Assembly: GCA_945874145.1 (NCBI GenBank)
Contig: CAMCFN010000025.1
Span: 1 to 52,401 of the forward strand
Origin: Akkermansia muciniphila
GTDB taxonomy: Bacteria > Verrucomicrobiota > Verrucomicrobiia > Limisphaerales > SXTU01
DNA length: 52,401 nt
Reading direction: 5' to 3'
Of this stretch, positions 16,121 through 34,552 are shown in pieces (positions within the stretch are counted from its first letter, which is position 1; each line of letters opens with the position of its first letter). The notes below the pieces were generated by a model. The model saw only the letters and a list, made by a program, of their open reading frames with translations. It had not been told where the DNA came from and did not search any database. The translations under genes were made by a program, and so were the position numbers.

Positions 16121-16862
16121 AAGGCACGCATGGGAGTAGATGCAGCTGTCCTGAATTGCCGCGCTCGCAGCACATACCTGCGTCAGGAACCGACCGGCGA
16201 ATCTCCGACCTCCAACGCTCTTTATGAAAATGTTCTGAGCGCATTTTCGCAACGCCCGGGACGGATTTACGAAGGTGACAAAGGGAAGCGCTAGAACGCT
16301 ACGCCTCTGACGCCGATGCTCAACGTCACCCAAAATCTCGCTGAAGAGGAAGCGGGGGAACAAAGCCCGAGTAGCGATTTGATGTGGCCTCCCTTCGCCC
16401 GTCTCTCCAGGACTCGATTTAAGCCCTCTCGTTTCGCCTCAACTCAGCGCTTCAGGCAGTCCAAAACGGCCTTTTCCGGTCAACTTTCAACACCGCTGGA
16501 CGTTGATGACACCGGTGAACCGGTGAACCTCGAAATCCGGTCGAAAACGAGCGCTGCAACGAGCCGATCGCGGAGGCAAAACGCCTTAAATCGAATCGTA
16601 GCGCGTCGTCGAGGAGAGGCGGATTTAGCCCTCCGCGTTCAGGATTCATCCTGAGGTTTTCGTCGAGGAAGTGAGCGCGGCAACGAACCGAAAGTTCCTA
16701 CGGCTCGGTTAGAAGCGACGCCGAGGTGCTGGTTGTGACGACGAATTTGGAGGGTTTCAGACACCGGTGAACGGGCGGAAACAGGGGTGACACGGTTGGG
16801 TTTGTTGAGACTAGGTGTTGAGACTTTCTCACTAGATTCACAAAAACCCTGTAAATAAAGGG
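16121..16862. other. 742-base non-coding stretch with short internal repeats
   Basis: No convincing gene on either strand. Short motifs recur: GATTTAAGCCCTC near 16420 and GATTTAGCCCTC near 16622; ACACCGGTGAAC at two places (about 16508 and 16761); CGTCGAGGA near 16609 and 16663. A small palindrome (CAGGATTCATCCTG) lies near 16640. This looks like accumulated dispersed-repeat material between the glycan island and the tRNA. Confidence 0.5.
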
Positions 16863-16939
16863 TGGTCGGGACGACAGGATTTGAACCTGCGACGTCTTGG
16901 TCCCAAACCAAGTGCTCTACCAGGCTGAGCTACGTCCCG
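16863..16939 (-). tRNA. tRNA-Pro (UGG)
   Basis: Read on the minus strand, a perfect 7-bp acceptor stem (CGGGACG/CGTCCCG, 16933-16939 with 16867-16873) encloses a D-arm (AGCTCAGCCTGGTAGAGC) and an anticodon arm CTTGG-TTTGGGA-CCAAG with anticodon UGG. The TPsiC arm reads AGGTTCAAATCCT. A discriminator A (16866) and an encoded CCA (16863-16865) follow. Confidence 0.95.
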
Positions 16940-19201: not shown

Positions 19202-19359
19202 GGTCAAATTTCAGTTCAAGTCTGCTCAGGTGGAGTTTCGACCATGCTGCGGGCTTTGGTTTCCCCTGGCCGAAACGCCGCGTGCAATATGCTGGCAACC
19301 GAAATGGGGGTCAACGGTTTTGCCGCCAGACCAACCCGGCAAAAGCGCGTCGGGCAGGC

Positions 19360-19468: not shown

Positions 19469-20794
19469 GTGAACGTAACCGTCGAAAATCTCGCCCCGTG
19501 CAAAAAGCTCCTGCGCGTGGAAGTGGACGCCGCCGAAGTGGATGCCGCTTTTGCCAACGTCACCAAGGAGTTCCAACGCCACGCCCAACTGCCCGGCTTT
19601 CGCGCTGGCAAAGCCCCCCGTGACTTGGTGCTCAAGAGCTTCGGCTCCCGCATCGAGGAAGAGGTCAAGAAAAAGCTCATCCCCGACTCCTATCAGAAGG
19701 CAATCGAGCAGCAGAAGATCCGCCCGGCCGTCCATCCTGACATCGAGGAGATTCAATTTGGCCGTGGCCAGTCCCTCCAGTTTGCGGCCACGGTGGAGAC
19801 CCAGCCCGAGTTCGAGTTGCCCGAATACAAGGGCCTGGCGGTGAAGCGCGAGCTCGTGCTCATCACCGATGCCGATGTGGACAAGGCGCTCAATGTCCTC
19901 CGCGAGCAGCGCACGGATTACAAGGACGTGGCGCGCCCGATCGTGGCCGGCGACATCGCCGTGGTGAACTACACGGGCACCTGCGACGGGAAGCCCATCA
20001 CTGAGACCGCGCCGACCGCGCGCGGCCTGACCGAGCAGAAGGCGTTTTGGATTCGCTGCGAGGCGGGCCAGTTCATCCCCGGCTTCACCGAGCAGCTCTA
20101 CGGCATGAACGCGGGCGAGAAGCGCACGGTGAATGTTGGGTTCCCGGCCGATTTCGTCGCCGCCGAACTCGTGGGCAAGCAGGGCGTTTACGAGGTGGAA
20201 CTCGTGCAGGTGAAGGAGCGAGTGCTGCCCGAGGTGAACGATGAGTTCGCCAAGTCCTTCAAGGCCGAAAGCCTGGAGCAGCTCCGCACTGGCATCCGCG
20301 CTGACCTCGAAGCCGACCGCAACACCAAGGCTTCGCGCTCCGTGCGCGACCAGCTCATCCAAGCCGTGCTGGGCAAGGTGCAATTTGATCTCCCCGAGTC
20401 CATCGTCCTGCAGGAGACCCGCAGCGTGGTTTACAACATCGTGCAGGAAAACCAGCAGCGCGGCATCCCCAAGGAAGCCATAGAGCAGCAGAAGGACGTA
20501 ATCTTCGCCAATGCCAACGCCAGCGCGAAGGACCGCGTGAAGGCCATGTTCATCCTCAACCGCATCGCGGAGAAAGAGGGCATCAAGGTCGAGCAGCAGG
20601 AGATCCTCGAACGCGTGCAGGGCATGGCCCAGCAATACCAGATGCCCATCCAGAAGCTCATCAAGCAGCTTGAGGAGCGCGGCGGCTTCGGCGAAATCCA
20701 CGAGCAGATCATCGTGGGCAAGGTGCTCGACTTCCTCCAGATCCAGGCGCACGTCGAGGAAGTCCCGGCGAGCGCGCCGGCTCCGGCGGTCTGA
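19469..20794 (+). CDS. tig: Trigger factor (ribosome-associated chaperone / peptidyl-prolyl isomerase)
   Basis: A 441-residue protein that binds at the ribosome exit tunnel and shields nascent chains. Three regions are visible: an N-terminal ribosome-binding domain with the signature GFRAGKAPRDLV (about 44-55); a central FKBP-type isomerase domain (about 150-245; GDIAVVNYTG, PGFTEQLYGM); and a long helical C-terminal chaperone domain rich in Gln/Glu (about 255-430) with a Pro/Ala tail. It starts at GTG with AGGA six bases before. Unusually, clpP/clpX do not follow; a strong bidirectional terminator does. The last 33 codons recur in diverged form at 29972-30070. Confidence 0.95.
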   Translation: MNVTVENLAPCKKLLRVEVDAAEVDAAFANVTKEFQRHAQLPGFRAGKAPRDLVLKSFGSRIEEEVKKKLIPDSYQKAIEQQKIRPAVHPDIEEIQFGRGQSLQFAATVETQPEFELPEYKGLAVKRELVLITDADVDKALNVLREQRTDYKDVARPIVAGDIAVVNYTGTCDGKPITETAPTARGLTEQKAFWIRCEAGQFIPGFTEQLYGMNAGEKRTVNVGFPADFVAAELVGKQGVYEVELVQVKERVLPEVNDEFAKSFKAESLEQLRTGIRADLEADRNTKASRSVRDQLIQAVLGKVQFDLPESIVLQETRSVVYNIVQENQQRGIPKEAIEQQKDVIFANANASAKDRVKAMFILNRIAEKEGIKVEQQEILERVQGMAQQYQMPIQKLIKQLEERGGFGEIHEQIIVGKVLDFLQIQAHVEEVPASAPAPAV

Positions 20795-20823
20795 GCCCCG
20801 GTAGCAATCCAACTGTAAACGCG

Positions 20824-20849
20824 AAGCGGCGGTCCATGGACCGCCGCTT
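20824..20849. terminator. Bidirectional hairpin terminator between tig and the nucleotidyltransferase gene
   Basis: A perfect 12-bp stem (20824-20835 with 20838-20849) of GC-rich arms starting AAGCGGCGG. It is followed on the plus strand by TTGTTTT. An A-rich flank on the other side gives a U-run on the minus strand as well. Confidence 0.85.
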
Positions 20850-20900
20850 TTGTTTTCGTGGCTGACAAATCCCGCCTCCCCACGTCGTCGGTTAACCCGG

Positions 20901-21644
20901 CTATTCCTGCAACGACGCCAGCACTTCCGGATCACGCACGTCCACCCAGCGGCCGGCGATTTGCAGGCCGGCCAGTTGATGCTTCGCGGCGAGCATGGCC
21001 GTCAGCGCGTCGGTCAGCTCGTATTCCCCGCGCGGCGACTTCTCCAGCCGCGCGGTGAACTCGAAGATCACCGGGTCGAACAGGTAGATGCCGGCGTTAT
21101 ACCATGCGGTGGCACCGGGCTTCAGCCGGCCCTGCGCGTGCAGCTCCGCTAGCTGGGCCTGGCTGGGCTTCTCCACGAGGTGGTGCAGGCAGAAAGCCGC
21201 GTCGAAGAAGAACAGTCCGCCCTTGGTTACGTCCTCGCTCCCGGTCACCGTCACGAGGCCAGCGAATTTCCCTTCGTTCCACCGCTTCAGCATGGCCGCG
21301 TAAGTCTCCGGCTTCACCAGGATGTCGCCGTAGGTCAGCAGGAACGGCTCGCTCCCCGCGAACGCCTTCGCCAGCTCCGGGGCCTTGCCCGTGCCGTCTT
21401 GCACCACCTGCCGCACGTAGCTGATGCGCGCCCCGAACTTCGAGCCATCGCCGAAGAACCCTTCCACCACCTCCGCGTGCCAGCCCGTCACGATGCAAAA
21501 CTCCCGGATGCCCACGCTCATCAACCCCTCGACGATGTGCTGGAGAATGGGCTTGCCCTGCACCTTGAGCATGGGCTTGGGGATTTCGTTGGTGAGGTCG
21601 CGCATGCGCGTGCCTTTGCCGGCGGCGAGGATGACAGCTTTCAT
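20901..21644 (-). CDS. NDP-sugar nucleotidyltransferase (copy A)
   Basis: A 247-residue protein that probably couples a sugar-1-phosphate to an NTP to give the activated sugar for glycan synthesis. MKAVILAAGKGTRM (1-14) is the G-x-G-T-R-x nucleotide-binding loop, followed by KPMLKVQGKPIL, the usual Lys-Pro-Met-Leu block. LLTYGDILV carries the catalytic-metal Asp (about 104), and VEKPS and WYNAGIYLF are sugar-binding loops. It has only the catalytic domain, without a left-handed-helix acyl/acetyltransferase tail. The sugar cannot be told. About 18 residues differ from copy B at 30164-30907. Confidence 0.85.
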   Translation of the reverse strand: MKAVILAAGKGTRMRDLTNEIPKPMLKVQGKPILQHIVEGLMSVGIREFCIVTGWHAEVVEGFFGDGSKFGARISYVRQVVQDGTGKAPELAKAFAGSEPFLLTYGDILVKPETYAAMLKRWNEGKFAGLVTVTGSEDVTKGGLFFFDAAFCLHHLVEKPSQAQLAELHAQGRLKPGATAWYNAGIYLFDPVIFEFTARLEKSPRGEYELTDALTAMLAAKHQLAGLQIAGRWVDVRDPEVLASLQE

Positions 21645-21784
21645 TTCAGGTAAGTTCGTTCGCGGGCCAGCGTCCGTGAACCGCCGTGAGATTTCCAGAC
21701 CGCGCGGGAAAAAAGTGCGGCCCTGCCCTAGTCCCCGTTGAAATACCCTTGGCGGGCGGGCCGTCGAAGGCCGGCCCAGACATC

Positions 21785-22912
21785 ATGCACTCCACCCGCG
21801 CTTTGCCTGCCACCCGCCGCCAGCTCCTCTCCGCCGTCGGGGCCGCCGCCCTCGCCTCGGCCTGGCGCACTGAAGCCGCGCCCGCGCCCCAGCCTGCGCC
21901 CCCCGCCCGGCCGGCGAACGCCCCGCCCGAGCCCGGCCGCCTCGTGCTCGGCTGTCAGATGTGGGGCTCGGACCCCGTTTCGCTCCTCTACTACCAACGC
22001 TACGGCGTGGCCCACATCATGGCCTCGCCACCCAAGCCGGACGCCGACGGGCGTTGGAGCGTCGCCGACTTGGTCGCCCTCCGCGAACGCGTCGCGCAGT
22101 CCGGCATCGCCGTCGAGATGCTCCCCTTGCCCGGCTTGTTCGACAACATTCTCCTCGGCCTCAGCCCCGCGCGCGACCGCGACCTCGACACCATGTGCGC
22201 CAACATCCGCGCCGCCGGCGAGGCCGGCATCCCCGCCCTCCACTACAACATCGCCACCGGCATCTATCGCGGCCCCACCGAGACTTACCGCACCGACCTC
22301 AAGGCCCCCGGTCGCGGCGGCACCTACTACGACACCTGGAAGGAAGCCGACGCGCTCAAGCTGACCAACGCCCCGCGCGAGCGCCTCGGCCCGCCCGCCG
22401 AAGTCATGTGGGAACGCATCGCCTACCTCCTGAAACGCATCGTGCCCGCCGCCGCCGCCGCGAAGGTCCGCCTCGCGATGCACCCGCCCGACCCGCCGTG
22501 GCCGCGCGGTTTCTGGGGCGTGGACCGCGTGCCTGGCACCTTCGCGGAACTCCAGCGCTACATTGCCATCGAGGAGAATCCCTATCACGGCCTGCTTTTC
22601 TGCCAGGGCACCATCTGCGAAATGGTTGCCGACCCCGCGCGCGAAATCGGCGAAGTCATCCGTTACTTTGGCCGGCGCGGGAAAATCTTCGCCATCCACT
22701 TCCGCAACATCCGCGGCCGGCGCGGTGACTTCCTGGAAGTGTTCCCCGACGAAGGCGACGTGGACATGCTCGCCGCTCTCCGTGCCTACAAGGAATGCGG
22801 TTGTGCCGGCATGGTCGAGCCCGACCACGTCCCCGGGAAGAACCGCGAAACCATCGTCTTCGCCTACGGCTACATTCGCGGGCTGTTGCAGACGGTTTAC
22901 GAAGGCGCGTGA
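21785..22912 (+). CDS. Tat-exported mannonate dehydratase-like TIM-barrel protein
   Basis: A 375-residue protein. TRRQLLSAVGAAALASA near the N-terminus is a twin-arginine signal, followed by a Pro/Ala linker. The rest resembles D-mannonate dehydratase (UxuA): a metal-ligand His in MHPPDPP (about 233), Cys in FCQGT (273), His in IHFRN (305) and Asp in EPDH (347). These correspond to the Mn ligands known in UxuA/ManD; the usual R-P-D-H reads E-P-D-H here. UxuA is normally cytoplasmic and acts on D-mannonate from glucuronate, so an exported version is odd. It may act on oligouronates or be a divergent family member. It is 13 bases before the giant gene, so probably co-transcribed. Confidence 0.7.
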   Translation: MHSTRALPATRRQLLSAVGAAALASAWRTEAAPAPQPAPPARPANAPPEPGRLVLGCQMWGSDPVSLLYYQRYGVAHIMASPPKPDADGRWSVADLVALRERVAQSGIAVEMLPLPGLFDNILLGLSPARDRDLDTMCANIRAAGEAGIPALHYNIATGIYRGPTETYRTDLKAPGRGGTYYDTWKEADALKLTNAPRERLGPPAEVMWERIAYLLKRIVPAAAAAKVRLAMHPPDPPWPRGFWGVDRVPGTFAELQRYIAIEENPYHGLLFCQGTICEMVADPAREIGEVIRYFGRRGKIFAIHFRNIRGRRGDFLEVFPDEGDVDMLAALRAYKECGCAGMVEPDHVPGKNRETIVFAYGYIRGLLQTVYEGA

Positions 22913-22925
22913 ACCGCGAGCCACG

Positions 22926-25900
22926 ATGATTCCCTCCGCCCACCCCGCCCCGTGCCGGCGCCTTGCAGTCGCCGCGTTCCTCGTCGCGCACATGCTCTCC
23001 GTCGTCCACGCCGCCGGCCAAGAGGTCCGCCTCATCGCCGCCGACGTGCCCGCCGCTCCGCCCGTCAGCACCCGCGTGGATTTCCGCCGCGCCGCCGATG
23101 GCGGGCTCATCGCCACGCAATGGCTTGCCGGCGTCACGCTCGGCGGACAGGCGCTCTTCCCGGTGACCAGCCAAGGCGCGTTGCTCCCCAAGGCCCCCGA
23201 TGTCTCCCTCCCCGCCGGCAAGGCCAAGCTCGCCAAGGAAGCCGACGACCTCCTCAAGGAACTCGACCCCGCGCTCGCCAAAGGCGGCCCCACCATCACG
23301 AACCCCGTGGACCTCGTGGACGCCCTCTATCGCGGCCAGAAACTCTCCCTCGGCCGCCCCGTCGGCCCGCAGCGCAACCGCGCCAGCGTCGCCTTTGCGA
23401 GTCCGGCGGCGGGCGAGCTGGTGGAACCCGGCGGGCTGGTGGTCGCACCCGGCGCGCGGCGGCTGGACGTGCCGTGCTTCCCACTCAGCATCACCGCCGT
23501 GCAAGCAGGCCGCGATGGCCAGCCCATTTCCTTCACGCCCCGGCTCCTGTGGAAAGGCCGCGACCTCCTCGCCGACTGCCTCTTCGAGCACAGCCCCGAC
23601 CTGCCGCTCGGCGACACCGGCGACCGCAAGTCCGCGACGCTCGAGGAATGGCTCGCCGCCACGCGCGGCGGCGAACGCCCCTTCCGCCGGCTGACGATTT
23701 ACCTCCCCGCCCTCGCCGACGCGAAGTCGCCGCCCTACGAACTCAACGGCCACCCGCTGCGCCTCAGCCCCGAAGGCGTGACGCTCGCCGCCGCGCCGGC
23801 CAACGCCACCACCGCGCTACGCCGCACGGACAAGTTCGCCCTCGAGCTTGTCCTCCCCGCGCCGACGCCCGACACCCGCGTGCCAGTCCCCGTCCTCACC
23901 GCGCTCGGCCCCGGCTGGAGCGGGCCAACTGACGACATGCTCTGGCTGCGCCGCGACGCCACCGCGCTCACCGTCACCATCAACCGCGCCGACGGCCGCG
24001 CCCTCACCCTCCGCCCCGAGCTCCCGCTGTCGCTCGCCGAAGCCGACCGCTGGCATCTCGCGGTGCTGGTCATGGGCGGGCGCGCGCCGGAGGACCTGCC
24101 CGCCGCGCACGTCCTCGCGCTGCCGCGTTCGCCGCAGCCCAACACCGACACGTTGGAGTTCCGCCTTGCCAGCGCCGGCCCCGGCGGCCCGCTGCCCTTG
24201 CCGAAGTCGCTCACCCTGCACGTCCGCGCCGGCTACCCGCTGCCGCCCGGCGCGACGAACTTCTCCGCCCTCGCCTGCGAGCAAGCCGCGCCCGGCCTCT
24301 ACCGCGCGCCGCGCGGCCAGCTCGCCTCCGGCCCGGTCAGCGCCGAACTCCTCCTCGGCTCCAGCCCTTCGCCCACCTTCCCGCTCGTGCTCACCGACGC
24401 CGCCACCCTCGGTGCCGCCACGCTCACCACACATCACAACCGCTGCGACTACTACCGGGGCGAGGAAGTGCAGCTCGCCGTCATCGTCCGCGCGCTGAAG
24501 GCACTCCCCGCCACCGCCGCGCGGCTCACGCTGCGCCACGAATCAGGCGAGGCATTCCCGCTCGGGGAAATCTCCCTCGCCGCGCCCGCCGGCCAGCCGC
24601 GCACCTTCTTCGTCAAGCTCCCCACCGCGCGCTGGCAGCTTGGCCGCCACGAGCTGCACCTCGCCGCGCCCGGCCTGCTCGCCTACGCCCACGCCGTCAC
24701 GCTCTACTCGGCCACGCCCGCCTCCACGTTCGCGCTGCCGAGCTGGATGCCCGCCAGCTTCTCCGGCCCGCCGCGCGTGGGCGGCGAGACGATTGCAAAC
24801 CTCCTGCTGGACCAGGCCCCGAGCAAGTTCCTCGCGCCGCACGAGCTCGCGGCCTTCACCGCGCAACCCGTCGCGCCCCACGCGTTGCGTGCGTGGTTCG
24901 CCCACGATGCCTTGCTCCCCGCGCCGGAGAAGACCGCCACTTACGACGCCGACACCGAACGCGAAATGGCCGTGGCCATGCGGCTCGGGCTGCGTTACGC
25001 GCCCGCCTACGGCTGGGGCATGAACGGCCAGGAAGCCGCGTGGAATCCCAAGCACAGCCTGCCCGAGGACCTCGCGCGCATGCAGCGCCTCTCCTCGCTC
25101 GTCACGCAACGCCACCGCGACTTCGGCAACTTCGCCGGCCTCCACCTCAACTGGTATCCCACCGCCGGCGGTTACTGGGAGGACCACCCGCCCACCGACG
25201 GCCACGCCACCGCGCGCGCCGCCCGCCTCGCCGCCGAGCTCGCGCAACTCCAGACCAACTCCGCCGCCCGCCCCGGCCTTACCGAACTCGACCGCGCCGT
25301 GCAGGCGCACCACTACCGCGTCGGCGCGCTGCCGCGTGCCTACCGCGCGTGGACCGAGCAAACATCCCGGCTCCTGCCCGGTCTCGCGGAGCACGCGCTC
25401 TCCGAGGACGTCGCGCAACCGGGCTTGTCGCCGCAAACGCCCGTGGCCAGCTCGTTCCTGCCCGTGAGCTGGTTCAACCAATCGGCGTATTACCCGAGCG
25501 TTTACTTCGCCACGCTGCCGGCGGCGACGGTTCACGCCTACACCGACTACGGCTTCTCGCCCTTCCAGCACTTGTGGGCGCTGGACTTCTGGGCCGCCGG
25601 CGTCGGCGCCAAGCCCAAATGGCTCACCTCCATGTCCAACGGCCGCGACCTCATGCTCCAGCAGGCGCTGCTCGCCGTCGGACGCGGCGCGGCCGGCGTG
25701 GACCTGCACGGCGACGACCCCGCCGCCGCGAAGCTGCTCGCGCGTTTGCTCACCGCCTACGGCCCGATGTTCCGCCGGCTCACGCCCGAGAGCGATGTCG
25801 CCATCGTCACCTCCCTGCGCCAGCAGTTCGCGGACAGCAAGCTCGTCGGCCGGTGGATGGGCTACACCGGCGGCAGCTACTTCGACCTTTACACCAAGCT

Positions 25901-28900
25901 CTGGTATGCGCGCCGCCCGCCCGCTGTGTTGCTCGAAGAAGAGCTCACGCCCGAGCGGCTGCGGGCGTTCCGCGCGGTCTTCCTCGTCCATCAACAAACG
26001 CCCTTCCCCGCGCCCGCCACCGCCGCGCTCGCCGCGTTCAGCGCGAGCGGCGGACGCGTCTTCAAGGACGCGGCCTCGGGCGCGGACCTGCCCGGCCAAG
26101 TCTTCTCCCTCGCGCCCGGAGAAGCCATCGGTCCCGCGTGGGACCCGAAGCAATACCGCGACACGCGCGACGCGCACTTCGTCGGCGTGCAGGCCGGTTA
26201 CGAAGCCGCCGCCCGCTCGCTCGACAAACTCTTGGCCCAGCTCCCGCCGCCGCGCGTGACCAGCGATTCGCACCACACGCTGCTCGCCACGCTCGCGGGC
26301 CGCGAGGTCGCCGTGGTCATGGCCGCGAACGACACGCACCCGCCGCCGGGCATTTACCACCCGTGGAACTTCTGGTCCGCCACGCTACTCGCGTCGGAGG
26401 GCCGGCTGTCCTTCGCGCAGGACTGCGTCGTTTACGACGTGCTCGCGGGCGGCCAAGAACTGCGGCCCACGCGCGGCGCGGACGGGCGCTTCACCTTGCC
26501 CGTCGCCTTCGACCGCGCAGCCGCGCGCCCGCTCGTCGTGCTGCCCGCCGCGTTGCGCGAGCTGCGGCTGACCCTGGCACCGCGCAGCGACCAGACGGAA
26601 CTGGCCGTGAGCGTGGAAGTGGTGGACGCGCGGCAACAGGTGCTCGCCGACGCGCTGCCGCTGGAGATTGCCCTGCTCGACGCAGCGGGGCGCAGCGTGG
26701 AAACCATTTACCGCGCGCTCGCCCCGGGCGAGCCGTGCCGGCTCGCGCTCCCCACCACGACCCGGCAAGAGCCTTGGCGTGTGCGCGTGCGCGAGCTCGT
26801 CTGCGGGCTCACCACCGAGCAGACCGTGCGGCCCCCGGCCCCGGTGCCCGCCGTGCTCCCCGCCACGCCCGTGCTGGTGGCGCGGCCGGCGGACGTGCGG
26901 CGTTTCCTCACGCCGCCCAAGCCGGCACCAGCCAGTCAGTCGGTGGAGTTCGATCCGTTGCAAGCCGTCGCCCTGCCGGAGGACGCCGCGCTGCCGCCGA
27001 AGACTTCCGCCCGCGTCGTCATTCTGCTCGACCGCCCGCAAGTCGTGGCCGGCGGCACCGCGCTCACGGAGCTTGCCACGCAGTTCGCCGCCCAGCTCCG
27101 CACGCGCGGGCTCGACGCGCGCGTCGAGGTCGTGGACCCGCTGGACATCGTCGAGCTGCCGTTGCGCTGGCAGCTCACGGCGCGGGACCGCGCGCAGCGC
27201 GAGGCCGTCGCTACGGGTCAACGCGTCGCCGCCGTCGCCTCGCTGGCCACGCGCTACTTTCAGGGCGAGAAGAAGCTGAACCAGCCCGACTACCTGCATC
27301 CCGACTCCGGCTACGCCGAGCCCGCCACGCGCCACCGCATCAGCGACCACGTCGTGCTGCTCGGCACGATGGCGGACAACCGTTACCTCGCGGACCTGCA
27401 CGCGACCGCAGGCCAGGCGGCCACCGAGCAAATCCCCGCTGCGGGCGGCGCGTTGGTGCAAGTGGTCTTTGATGCGTTCACCGCCGACCGCCACGCGCTC
27501 TCCGTGCAAGCGCCGGACCTTGCCGGGCTTCAGCGGGGCTTTGAAGCGGCGCTAGCCACGACGGCGTTTGCTCCCGCCGCGCCGCCCGCACCCGTCGCCA
27601 TCCTAGCCGGCAAGTCGAGCTCGGCGCAGCGCACCGCGTTGACCCTCGTGCGCGAGGACACGCTCGGCGCGAGCGTGTCGCCCATCGCCTTCACGCCGGA
27701 CGGCGGCGTGCTCGCGAGCGCGAACTTGCAGGCGAACACCTACTTCCAGTTCACCCCCGGCGCGCAGCTCGCGAAGGCTTGGCTCGGCAAATACGGCCTG
27801 CTCCCCGCCGCCAGCGGCAACGTCCTCTGGGCGCATCAGTGGTGGGGCGCGCCGGGCCAGCTCGACAAGCTCGTCCGCTGCGACGCGACCGCGCGGCCGC
27901 AGTGGGTCATGGAGGCACCACGCCACAGCGGCAGCTTCCAAGGCTGGCGGCACCCCGGCAGCACCGCGCTCCCGGACCGCGCGAGCGACGACCTATTCCT
28001 CGCCGGCCACGGCCGCCTCGCGCGCGTCAACGCCGCCGGCCAGATGCTCTGGCTGCACGACGACACCGCGGCGGCGGCGGACGTGCGCGCCTTCCGCTTC
28101 CGCCGCGACTTCATGCTGCACGACGTCAGCCCGGACGGGCGGCACCTGCTGGTCGCGGCGTTCGGCGTCGAGCCTTACAGCCACTTCGTCAGCCACTTCG
28201 TGCGCCCGGCCTTGCTGCTGTTCGAGGCGGCCACGGGCAAGCTGTTGTGGGAGAAAACCGGCGTGCTCATTGACCACTCGGCGTGTGCGTTCACCCCGGC
28301 GGGCGACCTGAGAATCCTCGCCGGCGACGCCACGCCCGAGCGGCGACGCCTGCTCCTGCTCGGCCTGGACGGGCGCGAAGAGTGGTCGCTCCCGCGTGCG
28401 GAAGGCACATCCGCCGCCGCGCTCACGGCGGACGGCAAACGCGTCATCGTGCGCCCCGAGGCCGCGCGCGACCGCAACCATCAGGTCATCGGCGAACCGC
28501 AGGGCTTGGCGGTGGTTGACCTCACGACGCAGCGCACCACGACCTTTCCGCTGACGGCACCCGTCTCGGCGTGGCGGCTGCTCCCGCGCTCCGGCCGCGT
28601 GCTGGTGAGCACGACCGACGGTCTGCTCACACTCTTCGAGAGCGACACGCGGCGGGTGTGGGAACGGCAGTTCACCGGGCCGGCCAGCCTGCTGGTGTCC
28701 GGGGATGAACAGCAGTTGGTCGTGGGGACGCCCGATGGTTTCCTCCGCTGGCTCGGACCGGACGGCACGCCGCGCCAGACCGCCGACCTCATGCCGCACA
28801 ACCGCGTGACCGACCTCGCCCGGTATGTGCGCGATTACACGCAAGCCCCCGTGGGCGTGCCGCAGATGGAGCCCGCGCCCGCGCCGCCGCCGACCATCGA

Positions 28901-29825
28901 GGCGCGCGGCCGGGGCGTCGTGAACTTCTCCCCGAACCTCCTCGCCGACCAGCACGCCACCGCCGCGTTGCTCGGCAAGCCCTTGACCGGGGAACACACG
29001 CTCACGGCGGAGCCCGTGGCCGGACGGACGCACGTCTTGTCCCTCGTGCAACGCGCGCCCGCCGCCGCGAACGCGCGCCTGCTCGTGCGCGTGACCGCCG
29101 CCGGACGCAAGGACCCGCTGTGCGAGGCCGAGCTGCCGTTGAGCGCGACGTGGGCGGAACGCACCGTCGCGTGGCCGGTGCCGGCGGGCACGGGGCGGCT
29201 GACGATTTCGCTGCGGCTGAACGGCCCGAGTGCGGCGGGCGCGGAAGTGCAGCGCGCCGGCTTGTTCGCCATGAAGTTCGCCTCCGGCAACTTGCTCGCC
29301 CAGCGCGGCCCCGCCGACCCGACGGCCCCGCCCGGCGCGTTGCTGGACGAGGCGCAGGCGAAGCCACCCACGCTGCGCTACTTCGCGCCGAACGATGTGG
29401 ACCTCGCCGCCCGCGCGCGCGGCGCGCCGCCGTTCCCCTGCACGCTGGAGCCAGCCACCCCCTTCGACGGGCGCGTGAGCGGGCAGCGCACTTCATGGAC
29501 CGGCAAACCGCTGACCGGCAGCACGCACGCGACGCTCGAAGTGAAGTTCGCCAAGCCGGTCAAGCTCGGCGCGCTCGCCATGCACGAGGACCCGACCTCC
29601 GCCGCGCATTACACGGACACTTACGCGCTGCTGGCCCGCGAGGCGAAGACGGGCCGGGCCGTGCAGCTCGGCAGCGTCGTGGGCAACCGCAATCCCTACA
29701 ACCTCTTCGTCTTCCCCGCCGTCGAGATCGAGTCGCTCACCTATCTGTGGCTGAAATCCCCCGACGGCCACGCGCGCGTGATGGAGCTGGAAGGCTACCG
29801 GGCAGAGCAGGATTTGTTGGAGTGA
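22926..29825 (+). CDS. Giant exported carbohydrate-active protein with GH-like barrel, beta-propeller and lectin-like end
   Basis: A 2299-residue protein. The start is the ATG giving a signal peptide (CRRLAVAAFLVAHMLSVVHA); the frame is open further upstream but only shadows the neighbouring gene. Visible order: beta-rich domains (about 40-640); a glycoside-hydrolase-like alpha/beta barrel region (about 660-950, with RLGLRYAPAYGWGMNG, LHLNWYPTAGGYW and LWALDFWAAGV); a beta-galactosidase-trimerisation/glutaminase-like alpha/beta domain (about 955-1080); beta-sandwiches; a GH67/GH20-N-like domain (about 1360-1540, LLGTMADNRYL); a PQQ/WD-like beta-propeller (about 1585-1960); and C-terminal beta domains ending in a discoidin-like fold (from about 2190). 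Probably periplasmic or surface glycan breakdown with the neighbouring dehydratase. GC content is very high. Domain calls are by eye. Confidence 0.7.
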   Translation: MIPSAHPAPCRRLAVAAFLVAHMLSVVHAAGQEVRLIAADVPAAPPVSTRVDFRRAADGGLIATQWLAGVTLGGQALFPVTSQGALLPKAPDVSLPAGKAKLAKEADDLLKELDPALAKGGPTITNPVDLVDALYRGQKLSLGRPVGPQRNRASVAFASPAAGELVEPGGLVVAPGARRLDVPCFPLSITAVQAGRDGQPISFTPRLLWKGRDLLADCLFEHSPDLPLGDTGDRKSATLEEWLAATRGGERPFRRLTIYLPALADAKSPPYELNGHPLRLSPEGVTLAAAPANATTALRRTDKFALELVLPAPTPDTRVPVPVLTALGPGWSGPTDDMLWLRRDATALTVTINRADGRALTLRPELPLSLAEADRWHLAVLVMGGRAPEDLPAAHVLALPRSPQPNTDTLEFRLASAGPGGPLPLPKSLTLHVRAGYPLPPGATNFSALACEQAAPGLYRAPRGQLASGPVSAELLLGSSPSPTFPLVLTDAATLGAATLTTHHNRCDYYRGEEVQLAVIVRALKALPATAARLTLRHESGEAFPLGEISLAAPAGQPRTFFVKLPTARWQLGRHELHLAAPGLLAYAHAVTLYSATPASTFALPSWMPASFSGPPRVGGETIANLLLDQAPSKFLAPHELAAFTAQPVAPHALRAWFAHDALLPAPEKTATYDADTEREMAVAMRLGLRYAPAYGWGMNGQEAAWNPKHSLPEDLARMQRLSSLVTQRHRDFGNFAGLHLNWYPTAGGYWEDHPPTDGHATARAARLAAELAQLQTNSAARPGLTELDRAVQAHHYRVGALPRAYRAWTEQTSRLLPGLAEHALSEDVAQPGLSPQTPVASSFLPVSWFNQSAYYPSVYFATLPAATVHAYTDYGFSPFQHLWALDFWAAGVGAKPKWLTSMSNGRDLMLQQALLAVGRGAAGVDLHGDDPAAAKLLARLLTAYGPMFRRLTPESDVAIVTSLRQQFADSKLVGRWMGYTGGSYFDLYTKLWYARRPPAVLLEEELTPERLRAFRAVFLVHQQTPFPAPATAALAAFSASGGRVFKDAASGADLPGQVFSLAPGEAIGPAWDPKQYRDTRDAHFVGVQAGYEAAARSLDKLLAQLPPPRVTSDSHHTLLATLAGREVAVVMAANDTHPPPGIYHPWNFWSATLLASEGRLSFAQDCVVYDVLAGGQELRPTRGADGRFTLPVAFDRAAARPLVVLPAALRELRLTLAPRSDQTELAVSVEVVDARQQVLADALPLEIALLDAAGRSVETIYRALAPGEPCRLALPTTTRQEPWRVRVRELVCGLTTEQTVRPPAPVPAVLPATPVLVARPADVRRFLTPPKPAPASQSVEFDPLQAVALPEDAALPPKTSARVVILLDRPQVVAGGTALTELATQFAAQLRTRGLDARVEVVDPLDIVELPLRWQLTARDRAQREAVATGQRVAAVASLATRYFQGEKKLNQPDYLHPDSGYAEPATRHRISDHVVLLGTMADNRYLADLHATAGQAATEQIPAAGGALVQVVFDAFTADRHALSVQAPDLAGLQRGFEAALATTAFAPAAPPAPVAILAGKSSSAQRTALTLVREDTLGASVSPIAFTPDGGVLASANLQANTYFQFTPGAQLAKAWLGKYGLLPAASGNVLWAHQWWGAPGQLDKLVRCDATARPQWVMEAPRHSGSFQGWRHPGSTALPDRASDDLFLAGHGRLARVNAAGQMLWLHDDTAAAADVRAFRFRRDFMLHDVSPDGRHLLVAAFGVEPYSHFVSHFVRPALLLFEAATGKLLWEKTGVLIDHSACAFTPAGDLRILAGDATPERRRLLLLGLDGREEWSLPRAEGTSAAALTADGKRVIVRPEAARDRNHQVIGEPQGLAVVDLTTQRTTTFPLTAPVSAWRLLPRSGRVLVSTTDGLLTLFESDTRRVWERQFTGPASLLVSGDEQQLVVGTPDGFLRWLGPDGTPRQTADLMPHNRVTDLARYVRDYTQAPVGVPQMEPAPAPPPTIEARGRGVVNFSPNLLADQHATAALLGKPLTGEHTLTAEPVAGRTHVLSLVQRAPAAANARLLVRVTAAGRKDPLCEAELPLSATWAERTVAWPVPAGTGRLTISLRLNGPSAAGAEVQRAGLFAMKFASGNLLAQRGPADPTAPPGALLDEAQAKPPTLRYFAPNDVDLAARARGAPPFPCTLEPATPFDGRVSGQRTSWTGKPLTGSTHATLEVKFAKPVKLGALAMHEDPTSAAHYTDTYALLAREAKTGRAVQLGSVVGNRNPYNLFVFPAVEIESLTYLWLKSPDGHARVMELEGYRAEQDLLE

Positions 29826-29971
29826 TGTCCGTCGAGCGCGACGACCTTTCGACTCCGCTGTGACGCCCATGCCCCGGCGGTGGCAACACCCCAGAACTAC
29901 CCCAGCCAGTGGCTCAAGTGGCTCGGCACAACGGCGACGTAATCAAACGCCACGCCCGGCCTGCCCAGCCC

Positions 29972-30070
29972 GGCGAAATCCACGAGCAAATCCTCGTCGG
30001 CAAGGTGCTCGATTTCCTCCAGCTCCAGGCCAACGTCGAGGAAGTCCCGGCCAGCGCCCCGGCGGCCTGA
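29972..30070 (+). pseudogene. 3' fragment of a second tig gene
   Basis: 33 codons ending in TGA encode GEIHEQILVGKVLDF and so on, matching the trigger factor C-terminus (from codon 408 of tig, 20690 onward). Nearly all base differences are silent or conservative (Ile to Leu, His to Asn), so this piece diverged while still selected as part of a full gene. No start or upstream tig sequence remains. The 146 bases before it (29826-29971) hold nothing recognisable. Confidence 0.85.
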
Positions 30071-30100
30071 AGCTCCGGTAGCAACCCAACTTAAAACGCA

Positions 30101-30125
30101 AAGCGGCGGTCATTGACCGCCGCTT
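30101..30125. terminator. Hairpin terminator, copy B
   Basis: Arms AAGCGGCGGTCA and TGACCGCCGCTT (30101-30112 with 30114-30125) followed by TTGCTTTTG. It is homologous to the terminator at 20824-20849, but the inner bases have changed in a compensatory way, so the stem is kept. Confidence 0.85.
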
Positions 30126-30163
30126 TTGCTTTTGTAGGAGCCGCCGCGAGGGGTTGTCGATGA

Positions 30164-30907
30164 TTACTCCTGCAACGCCGCCAGCACCTCCGGGTCCCGC
30201 ACATCCACCCAGCGACCGGCGATTTGCTGCCCCGCCATCTGGTGCCCCGCTGCGAGCATCGCGGTCAGTGCATCTGTCAGCTCGAATTCGCCGCGCGGGG
30301 ACTTTTCCAGCCGCGCCGTGAACTCGAAGAGCACCGGCTCGAACAGGTAAATGCCCGCGTTATACCAAGCGGTCTCGCCCGGCTTCAGCCAGCCCTGCGC
30401 CTGGAGTTCAGCGAGCTGCGCCACACTGGGCTTCTCCACGAGATGCTTCAGGCAGAAGGCCGAGTTGAAGAAGAACAACCCGCCCTTGGTCACGTCCTCG
30501 CTGCCCGTCACCGTCACGAGACCGGCGAACTTCCCTTCGTGCCAGCGCTTCAGCATCGCCGCGTATGTCTCCGGCTTCACCAGGATGTCGCCGTAAGTCA
30601 GCAGGAACGGCTCGCTGCCCGCGAAGGCCTTGGCCAGCTCCGGCGCCTTGCCCGTCCCATCCTGCACGACCTGTCGCACGTAGCTTATGCGCGCGCCAAA
30701 CTTGGCACCGTCGCCGAAGAACTCCTCCACCACCTCCGCGTGCCAGCCGGTGACGATGCAAAACTCCCGGATGCCCACGCTCAACAGCCCCTCGACGATG
30801 TGCTGGAGAATGGGCTTGCCCTGCACCTTGAGCATGGGCTTGGGGATTTCGTTGGTGAGGTCGCGCATGCGCGTGCCTTTGCCGGCGGCGAGGATGACAG
30901 CTTTCAT
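30164..30907 (-). CDS. NDP-sugar nucleotidyltransferase (copy B)
   Basis: A 247-residue paralogue of the enzyme at 20901-21644, with the same G-x-G-T-R nucleotide loop, TYGDILV metal-site motif and C-terminal GRWVDVRDPEVL. About 18 residues differ, none in the visible catalytic motifs, so it should be active. The start is the internal ATG matching copy A; the frame runs 43 codons further upstream but without similarity to copy A. Changes cluster in residues 150-225 (for example Asp-Ala to Asn-Ser, Arg to Trp), near the sugar-binding side, so the sugar preference could differ. Confidence 0.85.
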   Translation of the reverse strand: MKAVILAAGKGTRMRDLTNEIPKPMLKVQGKPILQHIVEGLLSVGIREFCIVTGWHAEVVEEFFGDGAKFGARISYVRQVVQDGTGKAPELAKAFAGSEPFLLTYGDILVKPETYAAMLKRWHEGKFAGLVTVTGSEDVTKGGLFFFNSAFCLKHLVEKPSVAQLAELQAQGWLKPGETAWYNAGIYLFEPVLFEFTARLEKSPRGEFELTDALTAMLAAGHQMAGQQIAGRWVDVRDPEVLAALQE

Positions 30908-31061
30908 TTCAGGTAAGTTTGTTTGCCGGCGGATTGTCCGCGAAGTCGCGTGCCTTTTCCAGACTGCACGGGCGAAAAGTTGCCGCGCACTTGTAGCTAC
31001 AGGCTGGTTCGAGTGCCACCCAATCCGCCTCCTCACGTCGGCGGCTACATGGGTGGCGTTG

Positions 31062-33551
31062 CTATTTCTTTACGGGTGGCGGAACGGGAACTGGCGCCGG
31101 CGCTGCGGGAGCTGCAGGGACCGGAGCCGGGTTGGACGTGGGCGGTGGCACAGTGCGCGGCACAGCGGGGAAGGCCCCGTAGGACTTGTTGCCCACGGTG
31201 TCCGTCGGGCCGGAGAAGTGGGGGCCTCCAGCGGCCACGTAGCCCATGCTGCGGCCCAGTTGCCCCGGCCCGACCCAGAACGAGTAGAGGCTCGCGTTTT
31301 TGAGGTGGAAGCGGATGCGCACAGTGCGGCCTGCGAGCATGGAGAGGTCTTGAATCCCGTTCTGCCAGTTCACTCCCATGAGGGTTTGATCGCCGTTCAT
31401 GGCGTTGGATTTGTCCACCGTGAAGGGTTGCGTCTGTTCTTTGGTATCGTTCTTCGTGACGGTGATGGGGCGTCCGTCCGGGTGCAAAATCTCGATCCGC
31501 AAGGAGCCGTCGGGTGCGTTGGTCTTCATGTTTACGAACATGAAGCGGGCATTGAACTTCACCGGGCGGGTCGTCAGCACCGCACCTTCCGGCCCCGCGT
31601 CCATGGAGCAGAAACCATCGCGGCGCAGGAACGCCAAGCCCATCGCGCCGCCCGCGTCGCGCTTGTCCGGTGCCCCACCGCGGCCGCTGAAGTAAAACCA
31701 GAGGTTCCGCCCGTTGACCAGAAAGCCACCGCCGGCGGACTGCACATTGCCCCAGTTCCAGTCGCCCTGCTTCTCGGAGACATCAATGAGCGGACGGCGA
31801 TCCGGGCGGTCCCAGTGGTAGCCGTCCCGGCTGAAACCGAGCCAGATGGAGTTGGGCTTGGGCCGGCCGGCTGGAATGTTTTTGTCCCCGCGCCAAATGG
31901 TGAAGAGGCCGACCATCAGGCTCTCGTAAGGCGTGGCGTCGAGGTTGTAGAGCTGCGGCGTCACCTGCAAATCCGGGCGCATCGGATCGAGGCGGTCCGC
32001 CCCCACCCACATCGTCGGCTCGGTGATGTCCTTCCAGTGCGGCCCGGCCAGCAGATCCTTCACCTCCCAATAACTGCGGGCGCGCGGCTCACCCCATTTG
32101 TCGCGCAGGCTGTAAACCCACACGTTGCGGAACGGGTTGTAAAAGACCGTGCTCCGGTCGCCAACACCGCCCGTGCGCAGTGCCGGGGCTCCCCAATGAA
32201 CTCCATCCGGCGAGAAGTGCAGGGTCAGGCCAAAGGCTCGGTTTTGTCCGTGCGAGCGCCACATTTTGTAGCGGCGGGTGGCGTCGAGATCGTTCTGGTC
32301 CAGCCACACCGTGGAGGAGTCACGCGGGTCGGTCTGCACGAGGTTGCTGCCGGCCTGCACATCGAAGTGCGGCTTCTCCCAATCAAGTCCGTTGGTGGAA
32401 AGCGCCAGCGCCGTGCCGCGCGCATAGCCGGCCATATACCAGGCGGCGAACACGGACTGCATGCGGAACAGTTCGCGCGGAAACACGTCTTCCAGCAGCC
32501 AGCGGTTGAGGCGTTCCACCGTGCTGCCTTTGGGGGACCGGGCGAGCAGCAGCATCGTGCGATCTTGCAGACGCACCCCGGTGAAGCGGTCGTGGGTGTG
32601 CAGCAGCGGACCGGCGATGAGCTTGTTCAATTCGGCTGCGAGCATGGCGCGCATCGGCTCGTGCAGCGCGGCATTCGTCGCATTGAAGGTCGGCAGCTTG
32701 GCGCGGGTTTCAGCGGAGAGCTGGGCGTTGAGATACTGCAAGACGGCATTGGTGCCGGGTGTCTTGAGCTTCTCCGCCAGCGCCGCCACATCCTGAAGCT
32801 CGGCTGGCTGGAAGGCGGGCCGCGAGATCGGGTTGAGCGGGTCCAGCCATACGCCATCGCTGAAGGGCATGGCCATCGGGGCCTTGCCGGCGGTTTCCCA
32901 TGCCTGCTCGGGCTTGAGCACGGGGTTGTTCGAGTAGAGCGTAGCGGAGTGCCATGTGCGTTTCGTGGTGTTGCTCTCGATGAGGAAATTGTCCACGAAC
33001 AACTGCCGACCCAAGGTGATGTCGATGACCGGTGGTGGGTTGCTCAGATAGGGCACGGGCATCGGCTCCCCGGGCTGGTATTCGCCCTTGGGCGGCCAGA
33101 CCGCTGGCAGGACGATCCCGTTGTAAAGTGTCTCGCCGGAGGGTTGGGGCGGGGCCACTGGCGCGGTTGGGGTTTTGGCCGGTGTGCTCAACAGCGCGGG
33201 CGGGGTGGGGCCGGTGGCGGTGGCGGCCACCTGATTCGTCATTTTGAAAATCGCATTGGACTGTGCTGTCGTGAGCCCGGTCCCGGCGGGCAGTGTCGCC
33301 GAGGGCAGCGCCAGCGGAGCAGGGGTGGTTGCCGCCGGGACTACGGTTCCGGTCGGTGGAGCGGGCTTGCCGGCGGAGCGGAAAGAATTGGCGTTGGCCG
33401 CCGCCCAGCCCACTACGCCGCCCGCCGCGACCGCGAGCACAAGCCAGAGCCAAGGAATGGCCGCCGGGGGCGTTGCTGGTGCCGGGGTTACCGCCGCTGC
33501 TGGCGCAGGTGCGGCGGCGGTTGAATGCTTGGGCTGCTTCTTTTTCGGCAT
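31062..33551 (-). CDS. Membrane-anchored GH32/GH43-like five-bladed propeller protein
   Basis: An 829-residue protein. After a Lys-rich start and Ala/Pro linker, one transmembrane helix (about 32-52, PWLWLVLAVAAGGVVGWAAA) anchors it, with the bulk probably periplasmic. From about residue 155, LGRQLFVDNFLIE is followed by repeated blade motifs such as LALSTNGLDWEKP, LHFSPDGVHWGAP and LGFSRDGYHWDRP, the 'S-x-D-G-x-x-W' pattern of GH32/43/DUF-type propellers. An unusual helical insert (about 240-385) separates the first blade from the rest. The C-terminus is a beta-sandwich plus Pro/Val/Ala tail. Likely a glycan-degrading or binding protein; catalytic residues were not identified. The start is placed at the ATG before PKKKQ. 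Confidence 0.65.
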   Translation of the reverse strand: MPKKKQPKHSTAAAPAPAAAVTPAPATPPAAIPWLWLVLAVAAGGVVGWAAANANSFRSAGKPAPPTGTVVPAATTPAPLALPSATLPAGTGLTTAQSNAIFKMTNQVAATATGPTPPALLSTPAKTPTAPVAPPQPSGETLYNGIVLPAVWPPKGEYQPGEPMPVPYLSNPPPVIDITLGRQLFVDNFLIESNTTKRTWHSATLYSNNPVLKPEQAWETAGKAPMAMPFSDGVWLDPLNPISRPAFQPAELQDVAALAEKLKTPGTNAVLQYLNAQLSAETRAKLPTFNATNAALHEPMRAMLAAELNKLIAGPLLHTHDRFTGVRLQDRTMLLLARSPKGSTVERLNRWLLEDVFPRELFRMQSVFAAWYMAGYARGTALALSTNGLDWEKPHFDVQAGSNLVQTDPRDSSTVWLDQNDLDATRRYKMWRSHGQNRAFGLTLHFSPDGVHWGAPALRTGGVGDRSTVFYNPFRNVWVYSLRDKWGEPRARSYWEVKDLLAGPHWKDITEPTMWVGADRLDPMRPDLQVTPQLYNLDATPYESLMVGLFTIWRGDKNIPAGRPKPNSIWLGFSRDGYHWDRPDRRPLIDVSEKQGDWNWGNVQSAGGGFLVNGRNLWFYFSGRGGAPDKRDAGGAMGLAFLRRDGFCSMDAGPEGAVLTTRPVKFNARFMFVNMKTNAPDGSLRIEILHPDGRPITVTKNDTKEQTQPFTVDKSNAMNGDQTLMGVNWQNGIQDLSMLAGRTVRIRFHLKNASLYSFWVGPGQLGRSMGYVAAGGPHFSGPTDTVGNKSYGAFPAVPRTVPPPTSNPAPVPAAPAAPAPVPVPPPVKK

Positions 33552-33695
33552 GGCATGATTAAGCCAAACCACACGTGAGAAGCCATCCGTTTTTCACCGG
33601 AGCCGCTGCTTTTGGGGCAGTGCCGGGTGTGCTGCCAGAAGCGAACCCGTGCCCACAATGGAGTGACGCAACAGGCGTAGTCCCGTTTACCCCGG

Positions 33696-34214: not shown

Positions 34215-34217
34215 GGG

Positions 34218-34517: not shown

Positions 34518-34552
34518 AACTGCAACGACAGACGAGGGCTTCACCAATGGAG

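Follow-up and report, generated by a model that had tools for sequence, protein, structure and literature searches.

The window, by which we mean the whole stretch of 52,401 nucleotides that was analysed, contains two direct copies of a segment composed of the 3′ end of tig, a terminator and a complete nucleotidyltransferase gene (Table 1). The two copies, 20689–21716 and 29971–30980, align by BLASTN in direct orientation with 84.8% identity over 1,030 alignment columns. Their starts are separated by 9,282 nucleotides in the tig part and by 9,263 nucleotides in the nucleotidyltransferase part, in agreement with the first-pass annotation, which had described the same order of elements occurring twice about 9.3 kb apart. 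In copy 1, tig and the nucleotidyltransferase gene NT1 are both complete. In copy 2, tig is represented only by its last 33 codons, stop included, next to a complete nucleotidyltransferase gene, NT2. The similarity extends ~72–73 bp past the start codon of the nucleotidyltransferase, a predicted sugar-nucleotide enzyme. Two genes situated between the copies, an uxuA-like gene and a giant gene, are here called the island.

Table 1. Features at and around the two tig–nucleotidyltransferase copies, in window coordinates.
Feature	Position	Strand	Remarks
apgM (2,3-bisphosphoglycerate-independent phosphoglycerate mutase)	17975–19207	−	NF003160, 525.5 bits (cutoff 468)
tig, complete trigger factor gene	19469–20794	+	TIGR00115, 356.6 bits (cutoff 180.2)
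Repeat copy 1	20689–21716		tig 3′ end, terminator, NT1 and 5′ flank of NT1; BLASTN to copy 2
NT1, sugar-phosphate nucleotidyltransferase	20901–21644	−	PF00483, 131.4 bits; 96% amino acid identity to G002 orthologue
uxuA-like gene (mannonate dehydratase-related TIM barrel), island gene 1	21785–22912	+	PF03786, 137.1 bits; NF003027, 96.4 bits (under cutoff 191)
Giant gene, island gene 2	22926–29825	+	2,299 residues from ATG at 22926; PF13360, 26.5 bits (just under cutoff 27.6)
63 bp behind giant gene	29826–29888		Last 3–8 bp within matches of G001, G004 and G006
Rhombosortase-like C-terminal scrap, 84 bp	29889–29972	−	Cut at tig junction; early stop
tig scrap	29971–30070	+	Last 33 codons including stop; 5′ part missing
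Terminator-like stem 3′ of tig scrap	30093–30133	+	Inverted repeat I2, 20-nt arms, 85% complementary; copy 1 equivalent at about 20817–20858
NT2, intact second nucleotidyltransferase	30164–30907	−	PF00483, 127.5 bits; 93% amino acid identity to NT1
132-nt identical stretch	30788–30919	−	Equals 21525–21656 of copy 1; −12 to +120 of NT genes
5′ flank of NT2	30920–30980		Homologous only to flanks of NT1 and of the G002 gene
REP-like dispersed 21-mer	31028–31048	+	Adjoins right end of copy 2; 20 genome copies at ≤2 mismatches; reversed control 0
ECF sigma-factor block	33696–36188	−	Sigma factor at 34556–35128, PF04542, 66.4 bits

The trigger factor of copy 1 shares 97% amino acid identity with that of the relative G002 and 85–89% with those of the other nine genus relatives. 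The apgM gene adjoins tig on the left and is also the neighbour of tig on contig C661 of G002, with 97% amino acid identity. The terminator-like stem is found behind tig across the genus.

The protein of the uxuA-like gene has counterparts with 91% amino acid identity in G002 and 80% in G046, and with no more than 44% in the remaining genomes covered by the search; among the ten genus relatives, only G002 contains a close uxuA-like gene. Towards its C-terminus, the giant protein weakly matches a PQQ/BamB propeller. It is 87% identical to its counterpart in G002 and has 21 homologues besides itself, at 28–89% identity. The third-position GC content of the island (0.88–0.91) is host-like when compared with tig, apgM, NT1 and hisD (0.85–0.89). 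The codon use check proposed in the first-pass annotation hence gives no sign of a recent foreign origin of the island, a reading that was dropped on this ground. Profile matches reveal no integrase among the two island genes. The only tRNA gene of the window, at 16863–16939, lies away from the island, and tRNA-borne integration was discarded.

The stop codon of the giant gene (29825) and the tig scrap (29971) are separated by 145 bp, which include a scrap of another gene. The island is thus located between the two copies, as the first-pass annotation had it, but not exactly, since it is not flush with copy 2. Proceeding 3′ from the giant gene, the order is the 63-bp segment, the rhombosortase-like scrap, the tig scrap and NT2. 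The first 55 bp behind the giant gene have no match in the ten genus relatives. The rhombosortase-like scrap matches one place each in eight of the ten relatives, at 78–95% DNA identity, and the intact gene of two of them scores 66–69 bits against TIGR03902, under the cutoff of 84. A plus-strand coding reading of 29889–29972 was dropped because the frame contains a stop in G004 and G010. In G002, G003, G004 and G007, the rhombosortase-like protein has short second matches, which fall antisense to a neighbouring amidohydrolase gene and were set aside. The protein also produces a longer match of 41% to 29864–30274, which contains three stops and spans the tig scrap and NT2; we take it for an over-extension of the rhombosortase-like scrap. 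Judged from its sequence, the right-hand joint of the island is a non-homologous scar and involves no tig–tig crossover.

The 5′ flank of NT2 is related to those of NT1 and the G002 gene: its alignment score was reached by none of 2,000 shuffles for NT1 and likewise by none of 2,000 for G002. For the nine other relatives, 105 to 1,967 of 2,000 shuffles reached the score, with 1,967 and 1,961 for G008 and G009. Further to the right, the protein of the gene next to copy 2 is 86% identical to that of G002 vs 66–69% in six other relatives, and HisD, encoded at 48 kb, shares 97% identity with that of G002 vs 86–92% in seven relatives. By these affinities, the DNA on both sides of copy 2 belongs to this lineage.

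In this genus, the ECF sigma-factor block normally flanks tig on the left, and it adjoins tig in six of the ten relatives. In the window it lies to the right of NT2, 2.8 kb away and turned round, with one other gene in between. Its nearness to NT2 was counted in favour of a relic of an old locus, an argument weakened by its being a single case and by the intervening gene. An assignment of this conserved block to clpP was rejected, the PF04542 match identifying an ECF sigma factor. The sigma tree comprised 10 rows (no G010) and the HisD tree 9 rows (G001 being represented only by a fragment, and G008 having no match).

The divergence between the copies is unevenly distributed. In the tig part, the 30 aligned codons contain nine differences, of which six are silent and three replace the residue. 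These bear out, over few sites, the annotated predominance of silent changes. The nucleotidyltransferase genes are identical from nucleotide −12 to +120 and 86.4% identical in the remainder of the gene, with no difference in the first 120 nucleotides and 86 in the rest. Among 66 pairs of nucleotidyltransferase genes compared, only G008–G009 also lacks differences in the first 120 nucleotides (13 in the rest), and the next pairs have three. The 132-nucleotide identical tract likely reflects gene conversion between NT1 and NT2, an argument weakened because the first 120 nucleotides are conserved throughout the genus, silent sites included. Mosaic tests on the nucleotidyltransferase genes gave p values of 5e-5 to 0.013 (MaxChi; raw p, 17 combinations tried), with 0.00025, 0.0016 and 0.013 for NT2; NT1 is mosaic as well. 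Purifying selection has likely kept acting on NT2; dN/dS between NT2 and NT1 is 0.081, in a pairwise range of 0.08–0.12. A stronger form of exchange, in which the pair would still be recombining and producing new mosaic alleles, and in which the 132 identical bases could release the 9.3-kb uxuA-like/giant stretch in circular form and so make the presence of the island in the population reversible, appears highly doubtful.

Copy 2 is older than the split of this species from G002, as far as the tree tests tell. A duplication after that split was rejected by the AU test (p = 0.037 and 0.023; 0.012, 0.008 and 1.2e-8 in a second set of trees without outgroup), and a tandem or segmental duplication within this species alone falls with it (p from 1e-8 to 0.037). 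A duplication in the stem lineage, with NT2 basal to the NT1–G002 pair, narrowly escaped rejection, with p values of 0.0675 and 0.075 (0.16, 0.084 and 0.051 in the second set). The best tree does not place NT2 there; it groups NT2 with G008/G009 (and G010). Ultrafast bootstrap values are 47–77% for NT2 with G008/G009 alone, 83–92% with G010 included and 69% when only the 3′ segment is used. In trees of the 5′ segments, NT2 takes other positions, which are poorly supported. The nucleotidyltransferase trees left out G027, whose row could not be aligned without gaps, and G012 was absent from the tig tree. Over its last 306 bp, NT2 shares 90.5% identity with G009 and 89.2% with G008, vs 80–85% with the rest. 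The tig scrap lacks the changes common to the window's tig and that of G002, and it is nearer to G001, G005 and G007 (88/93) than to G008/G009 (84/93). When the best 120 of 2,703 matches of a protein database search with NT2 are considered, none is nearer than 93%, in a database clustered at 90%.

The tig fragment had been ascribed in the first-pass annotation to a functional gene, either an old duplicate or the allele of a relative. That ascription is upheld by the lack of the shared changes and by the rejection of a species-only duplication. Copy 2 would be one or the other, and the 5′ flank and the 3′ half of NT2 disagree on which. Because of the 5′ flank, we lean towards an old duplicate from the stem lineage or towards a sister lineage that has not been sampled.

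In G002, tig, the nucleotidyltransferase gene, the uxuA-like gene and the giant gene follow one another on a single 11.7-kb contig, which runs 1.8 kb past the giant gene and contains no second copy. Genome-wide, G002 has one nucleotidyltransferase gene and one tig. The G002 assembly consists of 950 contigs and is 92% complete, so a second copy elsewhere in that genome could be missing from it. The first-pass annotation had suggested looking for genomes with a single unit and no island; G002 possesses a single unit and the island. The outcome named there as contradicting the proposal, namely both copies and the island in all relatives, did not occur either: ten of ten genus relatives have one nucleotidyltransferase gene and one tig each.

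The next gene after the giant gene in G002 is spermidine-synthase-like. In the present genome this gene is located on another contig, the 17,207-bp C86, and is 98% identical to that of G002. The similarity between C86 and G002 ends ~105 bp before the spermidine-synthase-like gene, 16 bp behind the end of the giant gene of G002. The similarity of C86 to G005 ends at −105 and that to G001 at −93, short of the ribosomal L13 gene, which precedes the spermidine-synthase-like gene in five relatives. The end of C86 was considered as the end of a mobile element, which no match supported. Because G002 has the island without the second copy, and other sequence lies behind the giant gene here, the island was probably present before the second copy, which a later rearrangement would have put behind it; this order is derived from one relative.

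We favour, with moderate confidence, a history in which the second tig–nucleotidyltransferase unit is a relic of an older copy of the gene pair that parted before the split from G002 and was placed behind the island by a later rearrangement. The ancestor shared with G002 would already have had the order tig, nucleotidyltransferase, uxuA-like gene, giant gene and spermidine-synthase-like gene. In this lineage, the chromosome would have broken behind the giant gene, bringing it next to the older unit. Where the rhombosortase-like gene and the older tig faced each other, a deletion between short similar sequences may then have taken the adjoining parts of both, leaving the tig tail and terminator beside an intact NT2. 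As direct repeats, NT1 and NT2 likely exchanged sequence by gene conversion, which would have produced the 132 identical nucleotides and the mosaic genes. The second unit is likely not a footprint of the arrival of the island, and the whole case would amount to fairly ordinary genome wear.

The best trees, the closeness of the 3′ half of NT2 to G009 and G008, and the mosaic structure of NT2 would also fit an allele acquired horizontally from a G008/G009-like lineage, later set beside the island, with conversion from NT1 replacing some of the sequence at its 5′ end. However, the 5′ flank of NT2 is not of G008/G009 type in the shuffle test, the tig scrap is nearer to other relatives, and the neighbouring genes of copy 2 belong to this lineage. 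Such a transfer is possible, though we think it the less probable course. Entry of the island by homologous recombination between tig loci of related strains, which would have left one copy on each side, was the mechanism put forward in the first-pass annotation. The direct repeats do flank the island, and NT1 is mosaic. Yet G002 contains the island at the same place behind a single unit, and a clean deletion of the second copy would be needed there. In addition, the right joint is non-homologous, its scraps meeting 145 bp past the end of the giant gene, and NT2 had already parted from NT1 when this genome and G002 split. This mechanism is very improbable.

An assembly artefact has also to be weighed, in which a chimeric metagenome contig joins two places or strains near 29826–29971. 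The genome consists of 157 contigs and is 82% complete, the relatives are metagenome-assembled, and remnants of several genes are found at the joint. Against such a chimera, there are no ambiguous bases, the sequence of the joint is single-copy in this genome, unlike the shared repeats at which assemblers switch, and the genes on both sides are from the same lineage. Moreover, this genome does contain, on C86, the gene found after the island in G002, and C86 ends in unrelated sequence, as a real break would give. We assign the artefact only a small chance.

Genomic islands flanked by direct repeats are generally modelled as products of homologous or site-specific integration. The present locus resembles them in that direct repeats enclose ~8 kb of lineage-specific genes. 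It differs in that the island occurs without the repeat in a sister genome, neither island gene encodes an integrase and the only tRNA gene of the window is elsewhere. Bacterial gene pairs are also known to duplicate, after which one member decays and the paralogues that are left undergo gene conversion with each other. Here, likewise, there are two diverged direct copies, one partly lost, that share a short identical tract; however, one gene is cut to its tail, and the copies likely flank the island by rearrangement and are not in tandem. The rhombosortase-like homologues of two relatives match nearly the whole TIGR03902 model, although with scores under the cutoff, and the window retains only ~25 C-terminal codons. 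PMC12046097 deals with duplication and conversion, and the portions of the literature covered by our searches yielded nothing on this locus.

Direct repeats around a lineage-specific block resemble an integration footprint, and the locus calls for caution in this respect: one sister genome indicates that the repeat is probably later than the block. In this uncultured member of the Verrucomicrobia, the core gene tig is situated at an uncommon chromosomal site, with a scrap of an older copy persisting elsewhere. Two diverged gene copies in one genome can turn into mosaics.

The direct repeat reported by the first-pass annotation is borne out, with two copies in the same orientation that agree at 84.8% over 1,030 alignment columns. 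The source genome (G000) comprises 4.58 Mb in 157 contigs and is 82% complete; the window is its entire contig C25 (52,401 bp). Copy 1 consists of the 3' end of a full-length tig and a full-length nucleotidyltransferase gene (NT1). Copy 2 is composed of the final 33 tig codons including the stop, the terminator stem, and a second full-length nucleotidyltransferase gene (NT2). As also proposed, the tig fragments differ mostly at silent sites, with 9 nucleotide differences over 30 aligned codons, of which 6 codons are silent and 3 replaced. At all three replaced codons the state of copy 2 occurs elsewhere in the genus, and copy 1 is the departing copy. The first is Leu in copy 2 and 9 of the 10 genus relatives (G001–G010), and Ile in copy 1 and G002, the nearest sequenced relative. 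The second is Leu in copy 2 and all ten relatives. The third is Asn in copy 2, as in G003, G004, and G006, and His in copy 1, as in G002.

Features of the window discussed in the text
Feature	Coordinates	Strand	Remark
Left region	1-16862		lower GC
tRNA-Pro	16863-16939	minus	right limit of low-GC left 17 kb
Copy 1	20689-21716		end of working tig, terminator, NT1
NT1	20901-21644	minus	first 120 nt: 21525-21644
uxuA-like gene	21785-22912	plus	island
Giant gene	22926-29825	plus	island
Rhombosortase-like scrap	29889-29972		
Copy 2	29971-30980		tig scrap, terminator, NT2
NT2	30164-30907	minus	first 120 nt: 30788-30907
REP-like 21-mer CCTCCTCACGTCGGCGGCTAC	31028-31048		
Gene right of copy 2	31062-33572		

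A chimeric assembly of the contig is unlikely. The contig contains no ambiguous bases, and the joint sequence behind the giant gene occurs once in the genome. The gene right of copy 2 is 86% identical in amino acid sequence to its G002 counterpart and 66–69% to those of six other relatives; it matches two pieces in G006 (63 and 79%) and only weakly in G001 and G008. HisD, at 48 kb, is 97% identical to G002, 86–92% to seven others, and 94% to a fragment in G001, with no match in G008. Both genes are thus nearest to G002, placing the two flanks in one lineage. At ≤2 mismatches, the REP-like 21-mer occurs between 6 and 172 times in each genome of the genus (reversed control, 0), and facing pairs are frequent among the places listed for G001 and G008. 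The left region has a GC content of 0.48–0.59 per kb and a third-position GC of 0.63–0.73 (four genes), and contains polysaccharide genes. The G002 contig is collinear with the window only right of tRNA-Pro, suggesting a variable region at this tRNA gene.

All ten relatives possess a single nucleotidyltransferase gene (89–96% identity; spread over two contigs in G009) and a single tig (spread over two contig ends in G002). The tig gene adjoins the nucleotidyltransferase gene in six of them (G002, G004, G007, G008, G009, and G010) and an ECF sigma-factor block in six (G003, G004, G005, G007, G008, and G009). A further collection of 80 named loci surrounding the nucleotidyltransferase gene, in which the ten genus relatives are again represented, was also compared. 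All 80 contain one copy of it in the stretch covered, and the uxuA-like and giant genes are present in one, that of G002. In a search of 58 genomes (G000 plus 57 relatives), matches to the uxuA-like protein reach 80% or above only in G000, G002 (91%), and G046 of another family (80%); the remaining matches are ≤44%. The two tig-bearing contig ends of G002 (end of L041 and start of L016) share a 480-bp overlap containing 9 mismatches and may therefore represent two strains or two alleles. Three public MAG records with close nucleotidyltransferase relatives (L111, L116, and L117; 90–94% at the amino acid level) bear the discordant titles Klebsiella pneumoniae, Akkermansia muciniphila, and Proteobacteria bacterium.

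Codon use does not set the island apart. The third-position GC is 0.909 in the giant gene and 0.878 in the uxuA-like gene, close to the 0.851–0.887 of tig, apgM, NT1, and hisD. The possible carbohydrate role of the island derives from one of its genes, the uxuA-like gene. A giant-protein query (frame residues 150–1150) retrieved 22 proteins including itself, the others being 28–89% identical; three, from Planctomycetes, are named PQQ-like or PQQ-binding-like beta-propeller protein.

The island does not lie flush between the copies as had been stated, since 145 bp separate the stop of the giant gene from the tig scrap. Part of this spacer matches one place each in eight of the ten relatives at 78–95%, and none in G002 or G008 at this threshold. 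In these relatives the sequence forms the C-terminal end of a gene on the minus strand, whose intact products in G006 and G010 score 66 and 69 bits against rhombosortase TIGR03902, below the cutoff of 84. The whole rhombosortase-like protein as query also located the gene in G008 and gave no full match in G002. In six genomes (G001, G003, G005, G006, G008, and G009; L103–L107 and L224) the gene lies tail to tail with an amidohydrolase-type gene, a family assignment tested on the G006 gene; G002 keeps the latter without a rhombosortase-like gene beside it. The rhombosortase-like scrap stops where the tig scrap starts, and both genes lack their mutually facing parts, a pattern that a deletion between divergently oriented genes would leave. 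Most of the tig of the older copy would have been lost in this way. The joint contains a few bases of common sequence, too few to prove a mechanism.

Contig C138 of G002 carries tig (from codon 145), the nucleotidyltransferase gene, the uxuA-like gene, the giant gene, and the start of another gene, whose G000 homolog matches a fused MFS/spermidine synthase. No tig scrap or second nucleotidyltransferase gene is present behind the giant gene in the 1.8 kb to the contig end. The G000 spermidine-synthase-like gene, on contig C86, is 98% identical to that of G002. The similarity extends to about 105 bp before the gene; beyond this limit, G002 contains the end of the giant gene, with its stop 16 bp off, and C86 contains 138 bp of other sequence up to the contig end. 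This C86 end (L207, 12071–12208), where G002 has the giant gene, features repeated CCCCTTTTGAACTC. The similarity of C86 to G005 and G001 ends 105 and 93 bp before the gene, respectively. More than 1 kb upstream of it is common to G001, G004, G005, G007, and G010, including a divergent ribosomal L13 gene in G005; G003 and G009 possess different sequence there. G000 and G002 thus lack the usual upstream neighbor from the same base, suggesting that their ancestor already carried the giant gene joined to the spermidine-synthase-like gene and that only G000 underwent the break behind the giant gene. The same breakpoint used twice would also produce this pattern.

The origin of copy 2 was assessed from NT2, its flank, and the tig scrap. 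In trees, NT1 groups with G002, and NT2 with G008, G009, and G010. An exclusive pair of NT1 and NT2 was rejected (AU p 0.037 and 0.023; further tests, 0.012, 0.008, and 1.2e-8), and NT2 at the base of NT1 and G002 was not (0.0675 and 0.075; further tests, 0.16, 0.084, and 0.051). Over positions 435–741, NT1 is 94.8% identical to G002, and NT2 is 90.5% identical to G009, 89.2% to G008, and 79.7–85.0% to others; positions 133–435 show mixed affinities for both. The main rival explanation, a donor of the G008/G009 type, agrees with this 3' half. However, the 5' flank of NT2 (63 bp past the identical run) belongs to the G000/G002 lineage. It is homologous to the NT1 and G002 flanks, whose scores are reached by 0 of 2,000 shuffles in either case, but not to those of the nine other relatives (105 to 1,967 of 2,000 shuffles reach the score); in G005, G007, and G010 its place is taken by a tRNA-Lys gene. 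Flank identities are 37/48 (NT1–G002), 36/49 (NT2–G002), and 32/49 (NT1–NT2). Copy 2 therefore combines a G000/G002-lineage flank with a 3' half nearest G008/G009. Of its 93 tig bases, 88 are identical in G001, G005, and G007, 84 in copy 1, G002, G008, and G009, 83 in G004 and G006, 81 in G010, and 80 in G003.

NT1 and NT2 are identical from −12 to +120 (132 nt) and differ at 86 sites in the remainder of the gene. Among 66 pairs of 12 sequences, only G008–G009 shares a longer run (180 nt; 13 differences in the rest); NT1 and G002 share 131 nt further along, with 59 differences. The excess is real but moderate, given that the first 120 nt are conserved genus-wide, including silent sites. Their silent-site conservation is unusually high, with third-position identity mostly 75–90% compared with ~50–75% elsewhere in the gene, as though a second constraint acted on them. 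Mosaic tests gave p values, uncorrected for multiple testing, of 5e-5 for NT1 between NT2 and G002, and, for NT2, 0.00025 (G002/G009), 0.0016 (NT1/G009), 0.013 (NT1/G008), and 0.10–0.19 with three other second parents. One of ten control combinations fell below 0.05 (G002 between NT1 and G009, 0.013), and it includes the mosaic NT1. Gene conversion between NT1 and NT2 is likely. The low pairwise dN/dS of NT2 (0.081 to NT1, 0.118 to G009) is as expected for a gene under purifying selection.

On these sequence comparisons, we lean to copy 2 being an old stem-lineage duplicate, or derived from an unsampled sister lineage, with its 3' half exchanged by recombination. The second copy would thus be old, and a rearrangement behind the island, likely in place beforehand, would later have set it there. 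The direct repeat is real and is best explained by ordinary processes.
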